NCBI GenBank assembly: GCA_900321605.1
Contig: ONWR01000009.1
Span: 1-63,281, forward strand
Origin: an uncultured Bacteroidales bacterium
Lineage (GTDB): Bacteria > Bacteroidota > Bacteroidia > Bacteroidales > Paludibacteraceae
DNA length: 63,281 bases
Direction of reading: 5' to 3'
Positions 14,036-52,472 of this stretch are shown here, piece by piece (positions within the stretch are counted from its first letter, which is position 1; every line of letters starts with the position of its first letter). Under the pieces are notes generated by a model, which was not told the DNA's origin, made no database searches, and saw nothing but the letters and a program-made list of their open reading frames with translations. A program made the position numbers and the translations under genes.

Positions 14036-14085
14036 CTATCAACTATCAACTATCAACTATCAACTATCAACTATCAACTATCAAC
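14036..14085. repeat. AACTATC heptamer array between umuD and umuC
   Basis: Five perfect AACTATC units (14041-14075) flanked by partial units at both ends make a ~50-bp, strictly 7-bp array that fills the umuD-umuC gap and ends 8 bp before the umuC start. Copy number changes would alter the spacing between the coupled genes. Confidence 0.9.
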
Positions 14086-14092
14086 TAATATC

Positions 14093-29466: not shown

Positions 29467-30259
29467 TTGCTTTATGGGCAGCTTTCTGGGTTAGTTTGCG
29501 TTGGGTTTTGGTCATCTGCGGGTTCATATAGCGGTTCTTACGAACGTCTTTTCCGGTTACGATCTCGTACCACACGCAGGCTGCCGTATAACGACCGTAG
29601 ATATAGTTCAAATGATAACCATCTCGGCAAAGAGTGTCTCCTAATTTCGTTTGGCGTGCGTTTTGGACAGCCAAACCACAGGGGATAATTTGACATTTGA
29701 CATTTGACATTTGACATTTTTGCTGCACGTAACACGTGCAAGCTTGGATAGAATCCCACATCTCCTGCTGGTTGTTATGATAGCGAGGATAAGCCGGATG
29801 TTTGGCGTCTTGGCTATACGCCCAAGTCTGCATCCAACAGAGTTGCGCCTCCGGCTGATACGCGCGGACGGTATCGATGAGCATGGATAGCCAAGGTTCG
29901 TACGAAGACTTGATACCGGAGTCATGGCTTGCCTGCTGCAGGGAAATGTAGTCGTATTTGCCGTCCATGAGCGCCTTGCGTAGCGAAATCGTGTCTCGGA
30001 TTTCGCGAATTTGAGGATTTGAAGATTTGAGGATTTGAGGATTTGTGCAGACACGATGAGAATAGGCGGCAGTGTCTTTGAGCAGGAACTCTGCGTGTTG
30101 GGCTAAGGAACAACCGCCGTAATAGAGGTTATGCACCTCGATCTCTATGTTCTTGGCATCGCAGAGCGGCACGAGTTCCTGCTCGACAGCGTCCCAAGAA
30201 AAGCTATTTCCGATACAGAGTATACGGATAAGCATCAATATGGATAAGATGGTTTTCAT
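29444..30259 (-). CDS. DUF4886 SGNH-hydrolase-like protein
   Basis: Near its start the protein has ILCIGNSFSWD, the nucleophile block of SGNH/DUF4886 esterase-like proteins, then YGGCSLAQH, and near the C-terminus DGYHLN, the Asp-His block. The start MKTILSILMLIR at 30259 may provide a weak signal peptide that merges into block I. Two segments are encoded by tandem repeats (29688-29715 and 30008-30045), producing Asn/Gln/Ser/Lys-rich inserts (QILKSSNPQI; KCQMSNVKCQ) not expected in the family. The 59-codon upstream extension is dismissed because it runs through an 11-bp repeat array. Confidence 0.78.
   Translation of the reverse strand: MKTILSILMLIRILCIGNSFSWDAVEQELVPLCDAKNIEIEVHNLYYGGCSLAQHAEFLLKDTAAYSHRVCTNPQILKSSNPQIREIRDTISLRKALMDGKYDYISLQQASHDSGIKSSYEPWLSMLIDTVRAYQPEAQLCWMQTWAYSQDAKHPAYPRYHNNQQEMWDSIQACTCYVQQKCQMSNVKCQIIPCGLAVQNARQTKLGDTLCRDGYHLNYIYGRYTAACVWYEIVTGKDVRKNRYMNPQMTKTQRKLTQKAAHKATKKRCPI
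29688..29715. repeat. ATTTGAC heptamer array inside DUF4886 gene
   Basis: Four perfect ATTTGAC units in tandem, in the coding sequence; the same unit (TGTCAAA on the other strand) is found at 36298-36325. Confidence 0.9.
30008..30045. repeat. 8-bp tandem repeat inside DUF4886 gene
   Basis: GAATTTGA, GGATTTGA, AGATTTGA, GGATTTGA, GGATTTG in tandem, translated on the minus strand as a polar insert. Confidence 0.8.
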
Positions 30260-30311
30260 TATGCTAATACGTCCGTGATTGTTACACGATAATAAGGGCA
30301 AAGGTCTAGGA

Positions 30312-30355
30312 TTGGTCCGATATTGGACCGATATTGGACCGATGTTGGACCGATG
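30312..30355. repeat. 11-bp tandem repeat between polA and DUF4886 gene
   Basis: Four units of TTGGACCGATA/G (30312-30322, 30323-30333, 30334-30344, 30345-30355), ending 10 bp before the polA stop codon. Confidence 0.85.
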
Positions 30356-36293: not shown

Positions 36294-36297
36294 AAAA

Positions 36298-36335
36298 TGT
36301 CAAATCTCAAATATCAAATGTCAAATCATCAAATC
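36298..36335. repeat. Heptamer array between ftsX and DUF3098
   Basis: TGTCAAA, TCTCAAA, TATCAAA, TGTCAAA in strict 7-bp register, then TCATCAAATC. Occupies essentially the whole gap. Confidence 0.9.
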
Positions 36336-37189
36336 TCGTAGAGCGAGTTATTATCCATGCGGATGTAGCGACCTGTGGCGATGAGAGAAGCAAAGAGCGT
36401 GATCAGCAAACCACTGCCAAGCACCACGGCGCATACAAAGGATATATTCTGCCACGTGATCGGGAAGAGGAACAAGCCCATTTCGTACTCCACATAATAG
36501 ACCAATCCGCTCAGCACGATCAGCGCTACTATTCCGGCAATCAGCCCCATCAACATATTGCGCAACACAAACGGACGACGTGTCACCCAAGACGTGGCAC
36601 CCACCAGCGTCATTGTGTTGATGATAAAGCGTTTGGAATAAATCTGCAAACGGATAGTATTGACAATCAACACCATGGACACTAACAGTAGCAGCAAAGC
36701 CACACCTAACAGGATATACGAGAAATCATGTACGTTACGGTTTATCAGATCGGTCAAATCCCGCGGATAGAGCACCTCAGAAATATACGGCAGCGACTCC
36801 AAACGCTCTGCTTCTTGCGCTAAACTGTCCGGATTGCTATAAAGCTCGGACGGATGAATCTCATAACTGGCAGAAAGAGGATTGTATCCCAAGAACGCCG
36901 TTGGATCTTCTCCCAACGAGACAATATGCTCCTGCAAGGCTTCTTCTTTGGATACATAGCGGAAACTGCTATATCCTTCGCTTGCCTCCAACATACGCTC
37001 CAAACGGGCACACTGCGTGCTATCCGCCTCTTGAGACAAGACGGCTGTGATGGTCACGTTCTCGCGCATACGCGTAAGAAGCGCTCCTGCCGACAGCAGG
37101 AGCACACATTCTATTCCTATCAGGCAAAGCACCAGCGATACGCTGACGCCTGCCGTCATATAGGAGTTTCTAAAGCGATGCTTACGCAT
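36329..37189 (-). CDS. ftsX: Cell division protein FtsX
   Basis: 286 aa with one transmembrane helix near the N-terminus, a periplasmic domain of ~130 residues (with YVSKEEALQEH and the ISEVLYPRDLTDLI end), and three C-terminal helices; the FtsX permease signature is visible in VLIVNTIRLQIYSKRFIINTMTLVGAT. With FtsE it would regulate peptidoglycan hydrolysis at division; ftsE is not in this window. Its ATG shares a base with the gldN stop codon, tying cell division to the T9SS operon. Confidence 0.93.
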   Translation of the reverse strand: MRKHRFRNSYMTAGVSVSLVLCLIGIECVLLLSAGALLTRMRENVTITAVLSQEADSTQCARLERMLEASEGYSSFRYVSKEEALQEHIVSLGEDPTAFLGYNPLSASYEIHPSELYSNPDSLAQEAERLESLPYISEVLYPRDLTDLINRNVHDFSYILLGVALLLLLVSMVLIVNTIRLQIYSKRFIINTMTLVGATSWVTRRPFVLRNMLMGLIAGIVALIVLSGLVYYVEYEMGLFLFPITWQNISFVCAVVLGSGLLITLFASLIATGRYIRMDNNSLYEI

Positions 37190-43072: not shown

Positions 43073-43103
43073 TCTTTTGTCTTTTGTCTTTCGACTTTCG
43101 ACT
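43073..43103. repeat. Heptamer array between DUF2795 gene and porP
   Basis: TCTTTTG, TCTTTTG, TCTTTCG, ACTTTCG, ACT in strict 7-bp register, immediately upstream of porP. Confidence 0.88.
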
Positions 43104-43498: not shown

Positions 43499-44062
43499 TT
43501 ACCCCTGCTTCCACGCTTCTTCCGGCTCCTCAAGCAGGTGACCGATGTAGCGCGACAAAACGAACAAATAGTCGCTCAAACGGTTCACAAATTTCTGTTC
43601 CTCTTTTCGGGCATCATTTTCGGTATTTTGGAGTACGTCAATACGTCTTTCTGCACGTCGGCAAACCGTCCTACAAACATGACATCGGCAGACTGTCTCG
43701 CTACCTGCCGGCAGAATGAAGGCTCTTTGCTTCGGCACCTCTGTCTGCATCGCATCGATCCATTGCTCCAACTGCTGCACATCCGATTCTTGGATCCACT
43801 GACCGGGAGCATCGCTCAAAGCAGCTCCAAGATTGAACAGTTTGTTCTGGATCCATTGCAGCTGTTCGTCTGAACTCTGAACTCTGAATTCTGAATTCTG
43901 ACATCTGACATCTAAATTCTTCATTCCTGCCCTCAACAAACCGATCCAGCTGTTGAGTTCATCTACTGTTCCGTACGCCTCAATACGTGCGTCAGTCTTC
44001 GAAACCCGTTTGCCGCTGGCAAGCGAGGTCTCACCTAAATCCCCTGTCTTAGTATAAATCAT
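43499..44062 (-). CDS. PduO-type ATP:cob(I)alamin adenosyltransferase with repeat-encoded insert
   Basis: 187 aa; MIYTKTGDLGETSLASGKRVSKTDARIEAYGTVDELNSWIGLLR is the ATP-binding N-terminus of PduO-type adenosyltransferases, and FILPAGS...CRTVCRRAER is the C-terminal signature. It makes adenosylcobalamin from cob(I)alamin and ATP. Between helix 1 and the next helix is an insert, DVRCQNSEFRVQSSDEQ, encoded by seven heptamers at 43870-43918. The family normally has a short variable loop here. Trimeric active site residues appear intact. Confidence 0.9.
   Translation of the reverse strand: MIYTKTGDLGETSLASGKRVSKTDARIEAYGTVDELNSWIGLLRAGMKNLDVRCQNSEFRVQSSDEQLQWIQNKLFNLGAALSDAPGQWIQESDVQQLEQWIDAMQTEVPKQRAFILPAGSETVCRCHVCRTVCRRAERRIDVLQNTENDARKEEQKFVNRLSDYLFVLSRYIGHLLEEPEEAWKQG
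43870..43918. repeat. CTGAAYT/CTGACAT heptamer array inside cobalamin adenosyltransferase gene
   Basis: Seven tandem heptamers: CTGAACT x2, CTGAATT x2, CTGACAT x2, CTAAATT. The same units make up the array at 44361-44437 in the next gene. Confidence 0.95.
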
Positions 44063-44074
44063 AATAGTATTAAG

Positions 44075-44095
44075 ATTACAGTATTCAGATTTCAG
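44075..44095. repeat. NNTTCAG-type heptamers between two genes
   Basis: ATTACAG, TATTCAG, ATTTCAG in tandem in the 29-bp gap between the methyltransferase and adenosyltransferase genes; the same variants recur at 52423-52464. Confidence 0.85.
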
Positions 44096-44982
44096 ATTCT
44101 AATCCGGTAATGACGTTTCAAATAATGTGTATCTACAAAGAGCAGTCCCACATGGTATAGATCCATGGATGTCGTCACCCTCGGATCGGCTTTCAGTTCG
44201 CGCCATGCGCGCTCCATCTGCTCCGAATAATGAATATCATCCAACACCAGTATGCCTTTCTCCGTCAACCGATTCAGCAAGAAGTCGGCATAACGTATCG
44301 TAGCTTCATATGTATGGTTCGCATCCACAAACGCCAAATCAATCCTTTCACCTTTCGCTTCTGAACTTTGAACTCTGAACTCTGAATTCTGAACTCTGAC
44401 ATCTGAATTCTGAATTCTGACATCTGAACTCTGAACGCTATATATATTATATAAGGTGTCGTCGATATTTCCCTGAATCCACTCTATGTTCTCCAGCTTG
44501 AGCATTTTCCAAACGCCTTGCGCCACACGCAGCACAGCCTCGCTGCCCTCCATCGTCACTACCTTGTTCCGGCTGTCCACACTCGCTAAATAAGCGGTAG
44601 TGATTCCCAAAGACGTTCCTAATTCCAAGATCTGCAACGGTCGTTTCTCCTCCTCATGCAGGAAATTGACGATCCGGAACAACACCTGCCCTACTCGCGC
44701 GCTCTCTAAATGGTTCTTGGCGATGTCACACACACGACGTTGTACATGCAGTCCTTCCGGCGAACCTGCCGAACCATAATCGACCACGTCCAGACTATCC
44801 TCACACGCCAATAACAACTCCCGCCGACGTTCGATGTCCCGAAAGCAGTAATACGCATTCTCATCCCGCAGAACGAACCGAACCAGACGGAACAGATACG
44901 GCGAATGAATCGCCTCGCCGGACGTGTTCCAAGCTGTCAAAAAATGCCGGATAAAAGCTCCTATTTGATGAATTTTACTCAT
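44092..44982 (-). CDS. Class I SAM-dependent methyltransferase with repeat-encoded insert
   Basis: 296 aa; the SAM-binding core reads LQILELGTSLGITTAYLA, then VVTMEGSEAVLRVAQ, and after an insert IDLAFVDANHTYEATIRYADFLL and ILVLDDIHYSEQM, as in O-methyltransferase-like proteins. The insert (VQSSDVRIQNSDVRVQ, then NSEFRVQSSEAKG) is four 7-residue units encoded by the 44361-44437 heptamers and sits in a loop between beta-strands. The substrate is unknown. Start at 44982 is chosen because the promoter -7 box ends about 9 bp before it. Confidence 0.87.
   Translation of the reverse strand: MSKIHQIGAFIRHFLTAWNTSGEAIHSPYLFRLVRFVLRDENAYYCFRDIERRRELLLACEDSLDVVDYGSAGSPEGLHVQRRVCDIAKNHLESARVGQVLFRIVNFLHEEEKRPLQILELGTSLGITTAYLASVDSRNKVVTMEGSEAVLRVAQGVWKMLKLENIEWIQGNIDDTLYNIYSVQSSDVRIQNSDVRVQNSEFRVQSSEAKGERIDLAFVDANHTYEATIRYADFLLNRLTEKGILVLDDIHYSEQMERAWRELKADPRVTTSMDLYHVGLLFVDTHYLKRHYRIRI
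44361..44437. repeat. CTGAAYT/CTGACAT heptamer array inside methyltransferase gene
   Basis: Eleven tandem 7-bp units (CTGAACT, TTGAACT, CTGAACT, CTGAATT, CTGAACT, CTGACAT, CTGAATT, CTGAATT, CTGACAT, CTGAACT, CTGAACG), fully coding. Confidence 0.95.
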
Positions 44983-46275: not shown

Positions 46276-46341
46276 AAAGTGCAACATGCCAGTATTATAT
46301 ACTATGTATATAATACCAACGAAAGAAGGTGCTAAATTTAG

Positions 46342-46398
46342 TGCGTTGTTAGTGCGTCGTTAGTACGTCGTAAGTGCGAGGTTAGTACGAGGTTTTAG
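46342..46398. repeat. 11-bp tandem repeat upstream of ybeY
   Basis: Units TGCGTTGTTAG, TGCGTCGTTAG, TACGTCGTAAG, TGCGAGGTTAG and TACGAGGTTTTAG are in tandem with 11-bp period. Confidence 0.82.
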
Positions 46399-51446: not shown

Positions 51447-52421
51447 ATGCAGAAAATGCACACACACCCGAACGCATGGCGCACACGAATGATGATCATT
51501 CTCACCATGCTGGTTGTAACCCTTCCTTCATGGGGTCAATATCGCCGTAGAGGAGGATTGTTGGACGGTGACCATTATCACTTTGTGTATCTAAGTGGTC
51601 ATGTCGGTTATTCGATTTTAGATTCGCATGCAACAGGCGTAATGCCCTCCGGTAAAGTGGGCGGTGGATTTGGTGTCGGATATGAGTACCGTAACAGCGG
51701 CCTTTGGGCGAACGTCGGTATTCAGATGAGTTTTCATCGTTCGAGCCTCAAACTTGATCCGTACACGATAGAGCACCCGGGTAAGTACAAATTCTCGGAT
51801 CAAAAGCTCTTGAACGGAACCTTCCTGTACGATGTGGAGCAGACCGACCAGATTCAATGGAATTTCTTCGACGTGCCTATCCTGTTCGGTTACTATACCC
51901 ATGGTTTCCATATAGGAGCCGGTGTCAAGTTAAGTTATGCTTTGAGTGCAAAGTTGAACACCGTGGGATCGTACAACCTGCGATTCCTGCCTACGGACTA
52001 TCAGGTAAAAGAGCCGTATCACGACATGCCGGACAGAGGTTTGACGGTGTATGAATTTGAGGCAAACCAGAAAAACCGCATCAACGTGGGAGCCGCGCTG
52101 ATCGGAGAGATCGGTTATGACCTCTTGTCATCGATGCCGAGCAACAGCCGTTTGTGCCATGTGCTCAAACTGAGTTTCTATTTCGAATACGGATTAAACA
52201 ACTACAACAAAGGTGGAGACAAACTGCGGTACGAGATGCCGCCGTTCAACAAGGAGCACGAAGCAAGTGCTACCGAATTGGTTTTCAACCCCTTCCTGAA
52301 CACAGAAGCGAGTCCTGCTCGTACGGTTCCGTTCTTTGCTGGTGCTAAGATCACCTATATGATCGGAGGTAGCCGTACGGCTCGTTCAGGATTCCACCAC
52401 GGATGTATGTGCTATAATTAA
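51447..52421 (+). CDS. Outer-membrane beta-barrel protein (porin-like)
   Basis: 324 aa; signal peptide (to WGQ, about residue 31) and alternating amphipathic strands ending in aromatic or polar turns: HFVYLSGHVGYSI, GGGFGVGYEYRNSGLWANVGIQMSFH, FDVPILFGYYTHGFHIGAGVKLSYALS, as in OprF/PorP-like barrels of Bacteroidetes. It ends TYMIGG plus a short basic tail. The start 51447 is the first ATG followed by a signal sequence. It lies 51 bp upstream of the giant repeat protein; the pair recalls SprB-SprF-type cargo-anchor pairs, which is inference. Confidence 0.78.
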   Translation: MQKMHTHPNAWRTRMMIILTMLVVTLPSWGQYRRRGGLLDGDHYHFVYLSGHVGYSILDSHATGVMPSGKVGGGFGVGYEYRNSGLWANVGIQMSFHRSSLKLDPYTIEHPGKYKFSDQKLLNGTFLYDVEQTDQIQWNFFDVPILFGYYTHGFHIGAGVKLSYALSAKLNTVGSYNLRFLPTDYQVKEPYHDMPDRGLTVYEFEANQKNRINVGAALIGEIGYDLLSSMPSNSRLCHVLKLSFYFEYGLNNYNKGGDKLRYEMPPFNKEHEASATELVFNPFLNTEASPARTVPFFAGAKITYMIGGSRTARSGFHHGCMCYN

Positions 52422-52422
52422 G

Positions 52423-52464
52423 ATTTCAGAATTCAGATTTCAGAATTCAGTATTCAGATTACAG
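52423..52464. repeat. NNTTCAG heptamer array between barrel and giant-protein genes
   Basis: Six perfect-register heptamers: ATTTCAG, AATTCAG, ATTTCAG, AATTCAG, TATTCAG, ATTACAG. They fill the gap and form the leader of the giant gene. Confidence 0.95.
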
Positions 52465-52472
52465 GTTAGAAT

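Follow-up and report, generated by a model that had tools for sequence, protein, structure and literature searches.

The window, that is, the whole stretch of 63,281 nucleotides analysed here, sits on contig C58 of a 2.3 Mb genome and carries side by side the genes of two unrelated enzymes, a PduO-type cob(I)yrinic acid a,c-diamide adenosyltransferase and a SAM-dependent methyltransferase, the start of the latter having been picked by a custom gene caller (table 1). The sequence-only reading had placed an in-frame array of heptamers in each of the two adjoining genes, and both arrays are real; a third set, claimed for the gap between the genes, is also present, though its extent is slightly longer than first described. 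The seventh unit of the array in the PduO gene is imperfect. Direct translation yields the repeat-derived peptides DVRCQNSEFRVQSSDE and VQSSDVRIQNSDVRVQNSEFRVQSSE, so that the 7-residue repeats of both proteins can be read straight from the DNA. Because seven is not a multiple of three, all three frames give the same heptapeptide, and unrelated proteins with the same DNA unit therefore have a peptide in common. Both arrays fall at putative loops, placed by the position of the repeats in alignments. With up to two mismatches allowed, TCTGAAYTCTGAA has 24 matches in the window where 3.6 are expected (maximum of 100 shuffles, 11), and a three-unit pattern matches 126 times in the 2.3 Mb genome against none for the reversed control. 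Two arrays of period 11 also lie in the window, at 30311-30355 and 46338-46394.

Table 1. Genes and period-7 arrays of the window, numbered from its first base
Feature	Position	Strand	Remarks
PduO-type cob(I)yrinic acid a,c-diamide adenosyltransferase gene	43499..44062	-	PF01923 (E 3.4e-58), TIGR00636
SAM-dependent methyltransferase gene	44092..44982	-	PF13578 (E 8e-13)
Heptamer array 1, TCTGANN x7	43869..43917		in PduO gene; coding strand reads TTCAGAN
Heptamer array 2, 11 units, 77 bp	44360..44436		in methyltransferase gene
Junction array between the two genes	~44066..44098		overlaps methyltransferase stop
Intergenic array CTATCAA x7.4	14036..14087		CTTTCAA at the same site in sister genome
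Period-7 array ATTTGAC	29688..29719		within a weakly supported gene call
Period-7 array AAATGTC/AAATCTC	36295..36326		
Period-7 array TCTTTTG/CTTTCGA	43073..43103		identical in sister genome
Intergenic array, TCTGANN family	52418..52468		8 bp shorter in sister genome

Named relatives of the genus are mostly rumen and gut Paludibacteraceae. Of 61 genomes, 58 have a PduO relative and 54 a methyltransferase relative. Among 81 loci (the analysed genome and 80 related ones) the PduO gene was resolved by pattern in 73, and these genes hold 12 period-7 arrays in the loop, which makes up 4944 of their 38622 bases, and none elsewhere. The loop units belong to eight families: TTCAGAR in the analysed genome and its sister, GCCAACA in four loci, two of them identical, and GTTACGG, ATTACGA, ATGACCA, GGACGGC, AGTACAG and AACGAAT in one locus each. 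Fifty-five methyltransferase genes contain four arrays in the loop, each of a different unit, and none elsewhere. At the junction, 80 loci show period 7 in 13, period 11 in five and period 8 in one, the others being 27 overlaps, 27 array-free spacers and seven unresolved cases. From species to species, the heptamers at these same spots (PduO loop, methyltransferase loop and junction) are unrelated. Aligned orthologues have either a shorter loop or other sequence in its place, and the two solved PduO homologues with alignments shown have a gap at the position of the array. The peptide common to the two enzymes, ascribed in the sequence-only reading to repeat spread at the DNA level, does have the same in-frame DNA repeat behind it and is absent from aligned orthologues outside the sister; spread between the two neighbours is, however, unsupported, since units differ between spots in three relatives that have arrays at two of the three spots, with GCCAACA in PduO and AAACGAC in the methyltransferase (L114), AGCCAAG in the methyltransferase and AATAATG at the junction (L115), and ATTACGA in PduO and AAAAATG at the junction (L139). 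The contrary pattern named by that reading, an old loop with diverged codons, was not observed in the alignments.

The sister genome RUG454 (locus L111, genome G061) is close, gene flanks next to spacers having group medians of 96 to 98% identity, and differs from the analysed genome at all of these spots. Unit number, which was compared between the two close genomes, is 11 in the methyltransferase array here and two in RUG454, a difference of exactly 63 bp or 21 codons, whereas the PduO array has equal length in RUG454 and other unit letters. The junction array is absent there, and the methyltransferase stop and the next start overlap as a 4-bp ATGA. Since such overlaps are found in 27 of 80 related loci as well, the junction array probably arose in the lineage of the analysed genome. 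Fusion of the two genes in RUG454 was ruled out, the methyltransferase ending RHYRIRI with the ATGA overlap. At ~44090-44105 of the window, the methyltransferase end RIRI is the same as in RUG454 while all four codons differ and the nearby DNA is almost identical; the end looks as if it had been rewritten beside the new junction array.

It has been confirmed that the arrays are part of a genome-wide system reaching beyond the two enzyme genes. A sample of 773 kb, scanned with a looser score, contains 161 period-7 arrays, about one per 5 kb, of which 79 are intergenic, 25 lie at gene edges and 57 are coding, the coding share of the sample being 83.5% by a custom simple gene caller. The same sample has 54 arrays of period 8 and 42 of period 11, 41 of the latter intergenic, against 15 arrays of periods 2-6 (10 of them of period 6, all coding). 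Exact runs, defined by at least 12 matching positions, number 59 for period 7 in 400 kb, with 14 for period 8, six for period 9, four for period 11 and two for periods 2-6 together; two shuffled sets contained no period-7 exact runs. Coding period-7 arrays occur in 36 of 463 genes with a good coding score, and the array-bearing genes identified by family models include ribBA, pheT, miaB, an LptF/LptG-like permease and, with period 8, a GH32 enzyme, with tsaB and aroQ among those of weaker coding score. Arrays often occupy stop-to-start spacers. The units fall into families including TCTGAAN, GTCGTTR, ATTTGAN and AATTAAN, and an identical unit is found in 70 pairs among 61 arrays at least 1 kb apart, compared with 10.6 on average and at most 21 in a GC-matched null (200 draws of heptamers from array-free spacers); with the commonest A+T unit left out, 34 identical pairs stand against a null mean of 3.3 and maximum of 10. 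Such sharing above the null is suggestive of copying among arrays as an additional process, or of a constraint common to the units. The idea that units consist of a constant core plus one wobble column was rejected: three of six unit families hinted at it, but the column had been chosen on the same data and one family gave 0 of 31.

Beyond the analysed genome, the TCTGAAY pattern is patchy: 18 of 36 genus relatives have at least one match, as do 106 of 395 genomes sampled across the phylum, the analysed genome included, and it is dense in few. The densest are G449, G062, G414 and G433 with 117, 99, 49 and 32 matches; these belong to other families of the phylum and are dense in the same TCTGAA-type arrays. 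Samples of 100 kb gave two exact period-7 runs each in G449 and G062 and none in G227, so the array density of the analysed genome is unusual. In 524 kb of related loci, period 7 accounts for 28 runs, period 11 for 43 and periods 2-6 for one.

Mapping to RUG454 covered 101 array sites of period 7, 8 or 11, a slightly different scan of the same 463 kb giving 155. At the 72 mapped period-7 sites, unit and length are the same in 21, length differs by whole units in 17, 13 show other changes, 17 carry another array and four carry none. The script scored C23:964, in a 5'-nucleotidase-domain gene, as having the same unit, although its letters and peptides differ (TMDNGQWTK here, TMNDVQSTK in RUG454). 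Whole-unit changes within coding sequence are -42, +21 and +63, all three being multiples of 21 bp, while none of the 14 at gene edges or between genes is. Fifteen of 23 coding sites have equal length in both genomes, and seven of the other eight differ by a multiple of three, the exception (+64) spanning a gene end. Eleven mapped sites have a strong array of an unrelated unit in RUG454 between flanks that are 85-100% identical. The period is kept at eight of these swapped sites (six 7-to-7, one 8-to-8 and one 11-to-11) and not at the other three; as seven is the commonest period anyway, this retention was set aside as an argument. One swapped site has unrelated 11-mers in the two genomes. The miaB gene encodes KSRKSKVESQK here and KQRQAKSSDGKQ in RUG454, where it has ordinary sequence of nearly equal length, and PheT with its array is little longer at that place than its E. 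coli counterpart; arrays can therefore overwrite as well as insert. Identity below 70% was seen in 19 of 58 spacers with an array in either genome and in nine of 74 without one (Fisher p 0.005), and since array-free spacers are also replaced, turnover is not special to arrays. The comparison covers two genomes and distant outgroups, and both genomes are draft assemblies with genes from the custom simple caller.

Stop codons differ in their distribution between coding and intergenic arrays. In one count of 62 coding arrays, stops are confined to the non-coding strand in 29 and to the coding strand in six, lie on both strands in four and are absent from 23, so that ten carry a stop on the coding strand in the consensus unit. 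Intergenic arrays have stops on both strands in 24 of 69 cases and in at least one orientation in 54 of 69.

Several dispersed modules were noticed in the course of the scans. A module of ~100 bp, CACAAAGCGTC ... GGCTTTTGTACAAA ... GTACC ... CCCTTTGTG, gives nine pattern matches in the analysed genome, of which three are clear copies by eye with heptamer arrays on both sides; it is found on C29 at ~36987-37032, 69861-69906 and 71284-71329, and also between the two genes in L140, L143 and L157. Another consists of GTTAAANNGTTAAAATGG and, after it, a short stem-loop with a stem that varies in sequence between copies; it lies at C50:92528-92643, at 373-412 of the window and at C28:53550 and 70112, and it is present in the sister at the sites of the analysed genome's C29:27759 and 69817; none of its ten matches is near a period-7 array. 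Hairpin-rich modules AATAATCGTTC...GATAAGAA occur at C29:27217-27329 and C29:36275-36438, one of them inside a heptamer array that is unbroken in the sister.

The arrays are probably heptanucleotide minisatellites that expand in place and are filtered by reading frame and stop codons, with no inserted element involved. Graded array lengths, steps of whole units and units altered at constant length would be expected of strand slippage, or of short-range template switching, while DNA is being copied, by which arrays would be born and resized in steps of 7 nt or more, shorter loops perhaps being cleared by mismatch repair. Selection would set where arrays stay: spacers would accept any unit number, and genes would keep arrays only where the protein tolerates them, in a stop-free orientation and with length changes that preserve the frame. 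Loss of mismatch repair was considered as a cause and rejected, as MutS is present in the analysed genome, one of 39 of 41 genomes in which it scores above the cut-off; its presence fits a lower bound on loop size, without proving it. A second MutS-like match, which we take to be MutS2, occurs in 22 of 24 genus relatives and is missing from the analysed genome. The genes that stand beside it in a relative are found on a contig of the analysed genome (C31:12919-16281) without it, an absence that could be an assembly gap, and relatives that have the second gene carry arrays too. The search for reverse transcriptases, confined to the PF00078 type, found none in the analysed genome. Three features are beyond slippage alone: the unit vocabulary that arrays have in common, the abrupt onset at period 7 and the complete swaps. 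The vocabulary would be covered if arrays copied from each other or if the units had a constraint in common.

Other explanations have to be weighed against this one. Delivery of heptamers into genes and spacers by a short insertion element akin to the Rickettsia palindromic elements would account for unrelated genes with the same peptide, missing from aligned orthologues, for a junction array present here and not in the sister, and for the three clear copies of the ~100 bp module with arrays on both flanks. Yet such an element is quite improbable, as ends and length are not constant, unit number is graded at one site, relatives hold unrelated units at the same spots and, in the sister sample, all four matches to the module pattern lie away from arrays. 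It is somewhat easier to imagine, though still unlikely, that the arrays have a selected function as protein-binding sites or as unstructured spacers that stop translation, those in coding sequence being by-products. One stop per unit suffices to give stops in all frames, and this reading is in keeping with the enrichment between genes, the many arrays that occupy the space from a stop to the next start, the frequency of stops in at least one orientation of intergenic arrays and the excess of unit sharing over the GC-matched null; against it stand the 57 coding arrays and, where a fixed binding site is concerned, the swapping of units at the same site between close genomes and the many unit families found side by side.

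Changes in unit number might also act as phase-variation switches turning genes on or off, as heptanucleotide repeats are reported to do in the hmw promoters of Haemophilus influenzae (PMC8262952, PMC2424069), and changes of 7 bp are frequent in spacers and at gene edges. A switching role is nevertheless very improbable here, given that the frame is kept in seven of the eight coding length differences (a small sample from two genomes) and that the named array-bearing genes encode housekeeping enzymes. Assembly artefacts are extremely unlikely to have produced the arrays: short-read metagenome assemblies are drafts and tandem repeats are error-prone in them, but unit and length agree at 21 of 72 period-7 sites in two separately named assemblies, reading frames are preserved and most arrays are shorter than 80 bp. 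A bolder idea, which is doubtful though the least so of these alternatives, is that an active process writes period-locked arrays of no fixed sequence at exposed spots, in steps of 7 nt (also 8 and 11), overwriting units while keeping the period. If it were true, spacers and protein loops would be continually rewritten by some enzyme or combination of enzymes, seven would be a physical step of the machinery and not a property of sequence, and ~8% of well-supported sampled genes would carry the output of that machinery as peptides.

The genus amounts to a natural experiment: it has close genomes with many mapped sites and unit sequences and one dominant period, so that step length can be separated from sequence. 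Period 7 persists at its spots while the spelling of the unit changes between related species. The arrays also constitute a route from DNA repeat to protein sequence within conserved enzymes of cobalamin, riboflavin and tRNA modification pathways, in which the filter imposed by the reading frame is visible. Annotators of such genomes should be aware that peptides such as VQNSEFR, PTTNDQR and KSKVESQ may stem from DNA repeats rather than from homology.

Rickettsia palindromic elements are defined palindromic elements that lie in-frame in unrelated genes and give them similar peptides. The arrays described here resemble them in placing a repeat-derived peptide in unrelated proteins that has no counterpart in aligned orthologues, and differ in having variable tandem units and undefined ends. 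The likeness to an inserted element of this type, drawn by the sequence-only reading, is not supported, given the lack of any fixed length or end and the two units in the sister against 11 here; for the arrays themselves, insertion of an element was rejected on graded unit number and on unrelated units at the same spot. By structure they are members of the recognised class of heptanucleotide repeats. Their 7-bp units run head to tail above chance, as in heptanucleotide simple sequence repeats, and array length differs by whole units between close relatives at 17 of 72 mapped period-7 sites. The frame shifts that mark contingency repeats are by contrast nearly lacking, seven of eight coding length differences being multiples of three in a small sample from two genomes. 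A literature search, with subscription journals mostly beyond its reach, yielded no account of Bacteroidales with heptamer arrays inside coding genes and no published description of the coding load, the mixed vocabulary or the unit turnover at fixed spots.

The closest parallel comes from the TAACTGA heptamer direct repeats of marine Beggiatoaceae, Cyanobacteria and five Bacteroidetes, which the accessible text of MacGregor 2015 (PMC4679880) describes as having period 7, lying mostly between genes, taking a stop-free orientation in ORFs, mixing with other heptamers and differing by indels mostly of 7-nt steps, there between two Cyanothece strains, all of them features in which the present arrays are alike. 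In the same portion of that paper, however, one unit is favoured in the main genome, where many families are found here; the repeats are mostly upstream of start codons in 2-6 copies, with up to 43 elsewhere; and those in ORFs affect mostly hypothetical proteins or protein ends, whereas the present arrays lie within conserved enzymes. Unit swapping at fixed sites sets the present arrays apart from the TAACTGA repeats as described there, and TAACTGA itself is not among the consensus units of 101 period-7 arrays. According to the citations of their work in PMC4679880 and PMC4692102, Mrazek et al. 2007 identified seven as the favoured unit of long simple sequence repeats, and slippage involving a 7-nt polymerase contact was proposed as the cause; by the same citations, coding repeats favour multiples of three, in contrast to the 7-mers common in genes here. 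The GGGAATC and GGGGA(C/T)T repeats of Xanthomonas and Nostoc, to judge from the accessible text of PMC4692102, likewise form heptamer arrays at numerous sites, which in close relatives mostly lie between the same genes and vary in both length and sequence; the repeats are G-rich and proposed to form quadruplexes, whereas the arrays of the analysed genome are A+T-rich and comprise many unit families.
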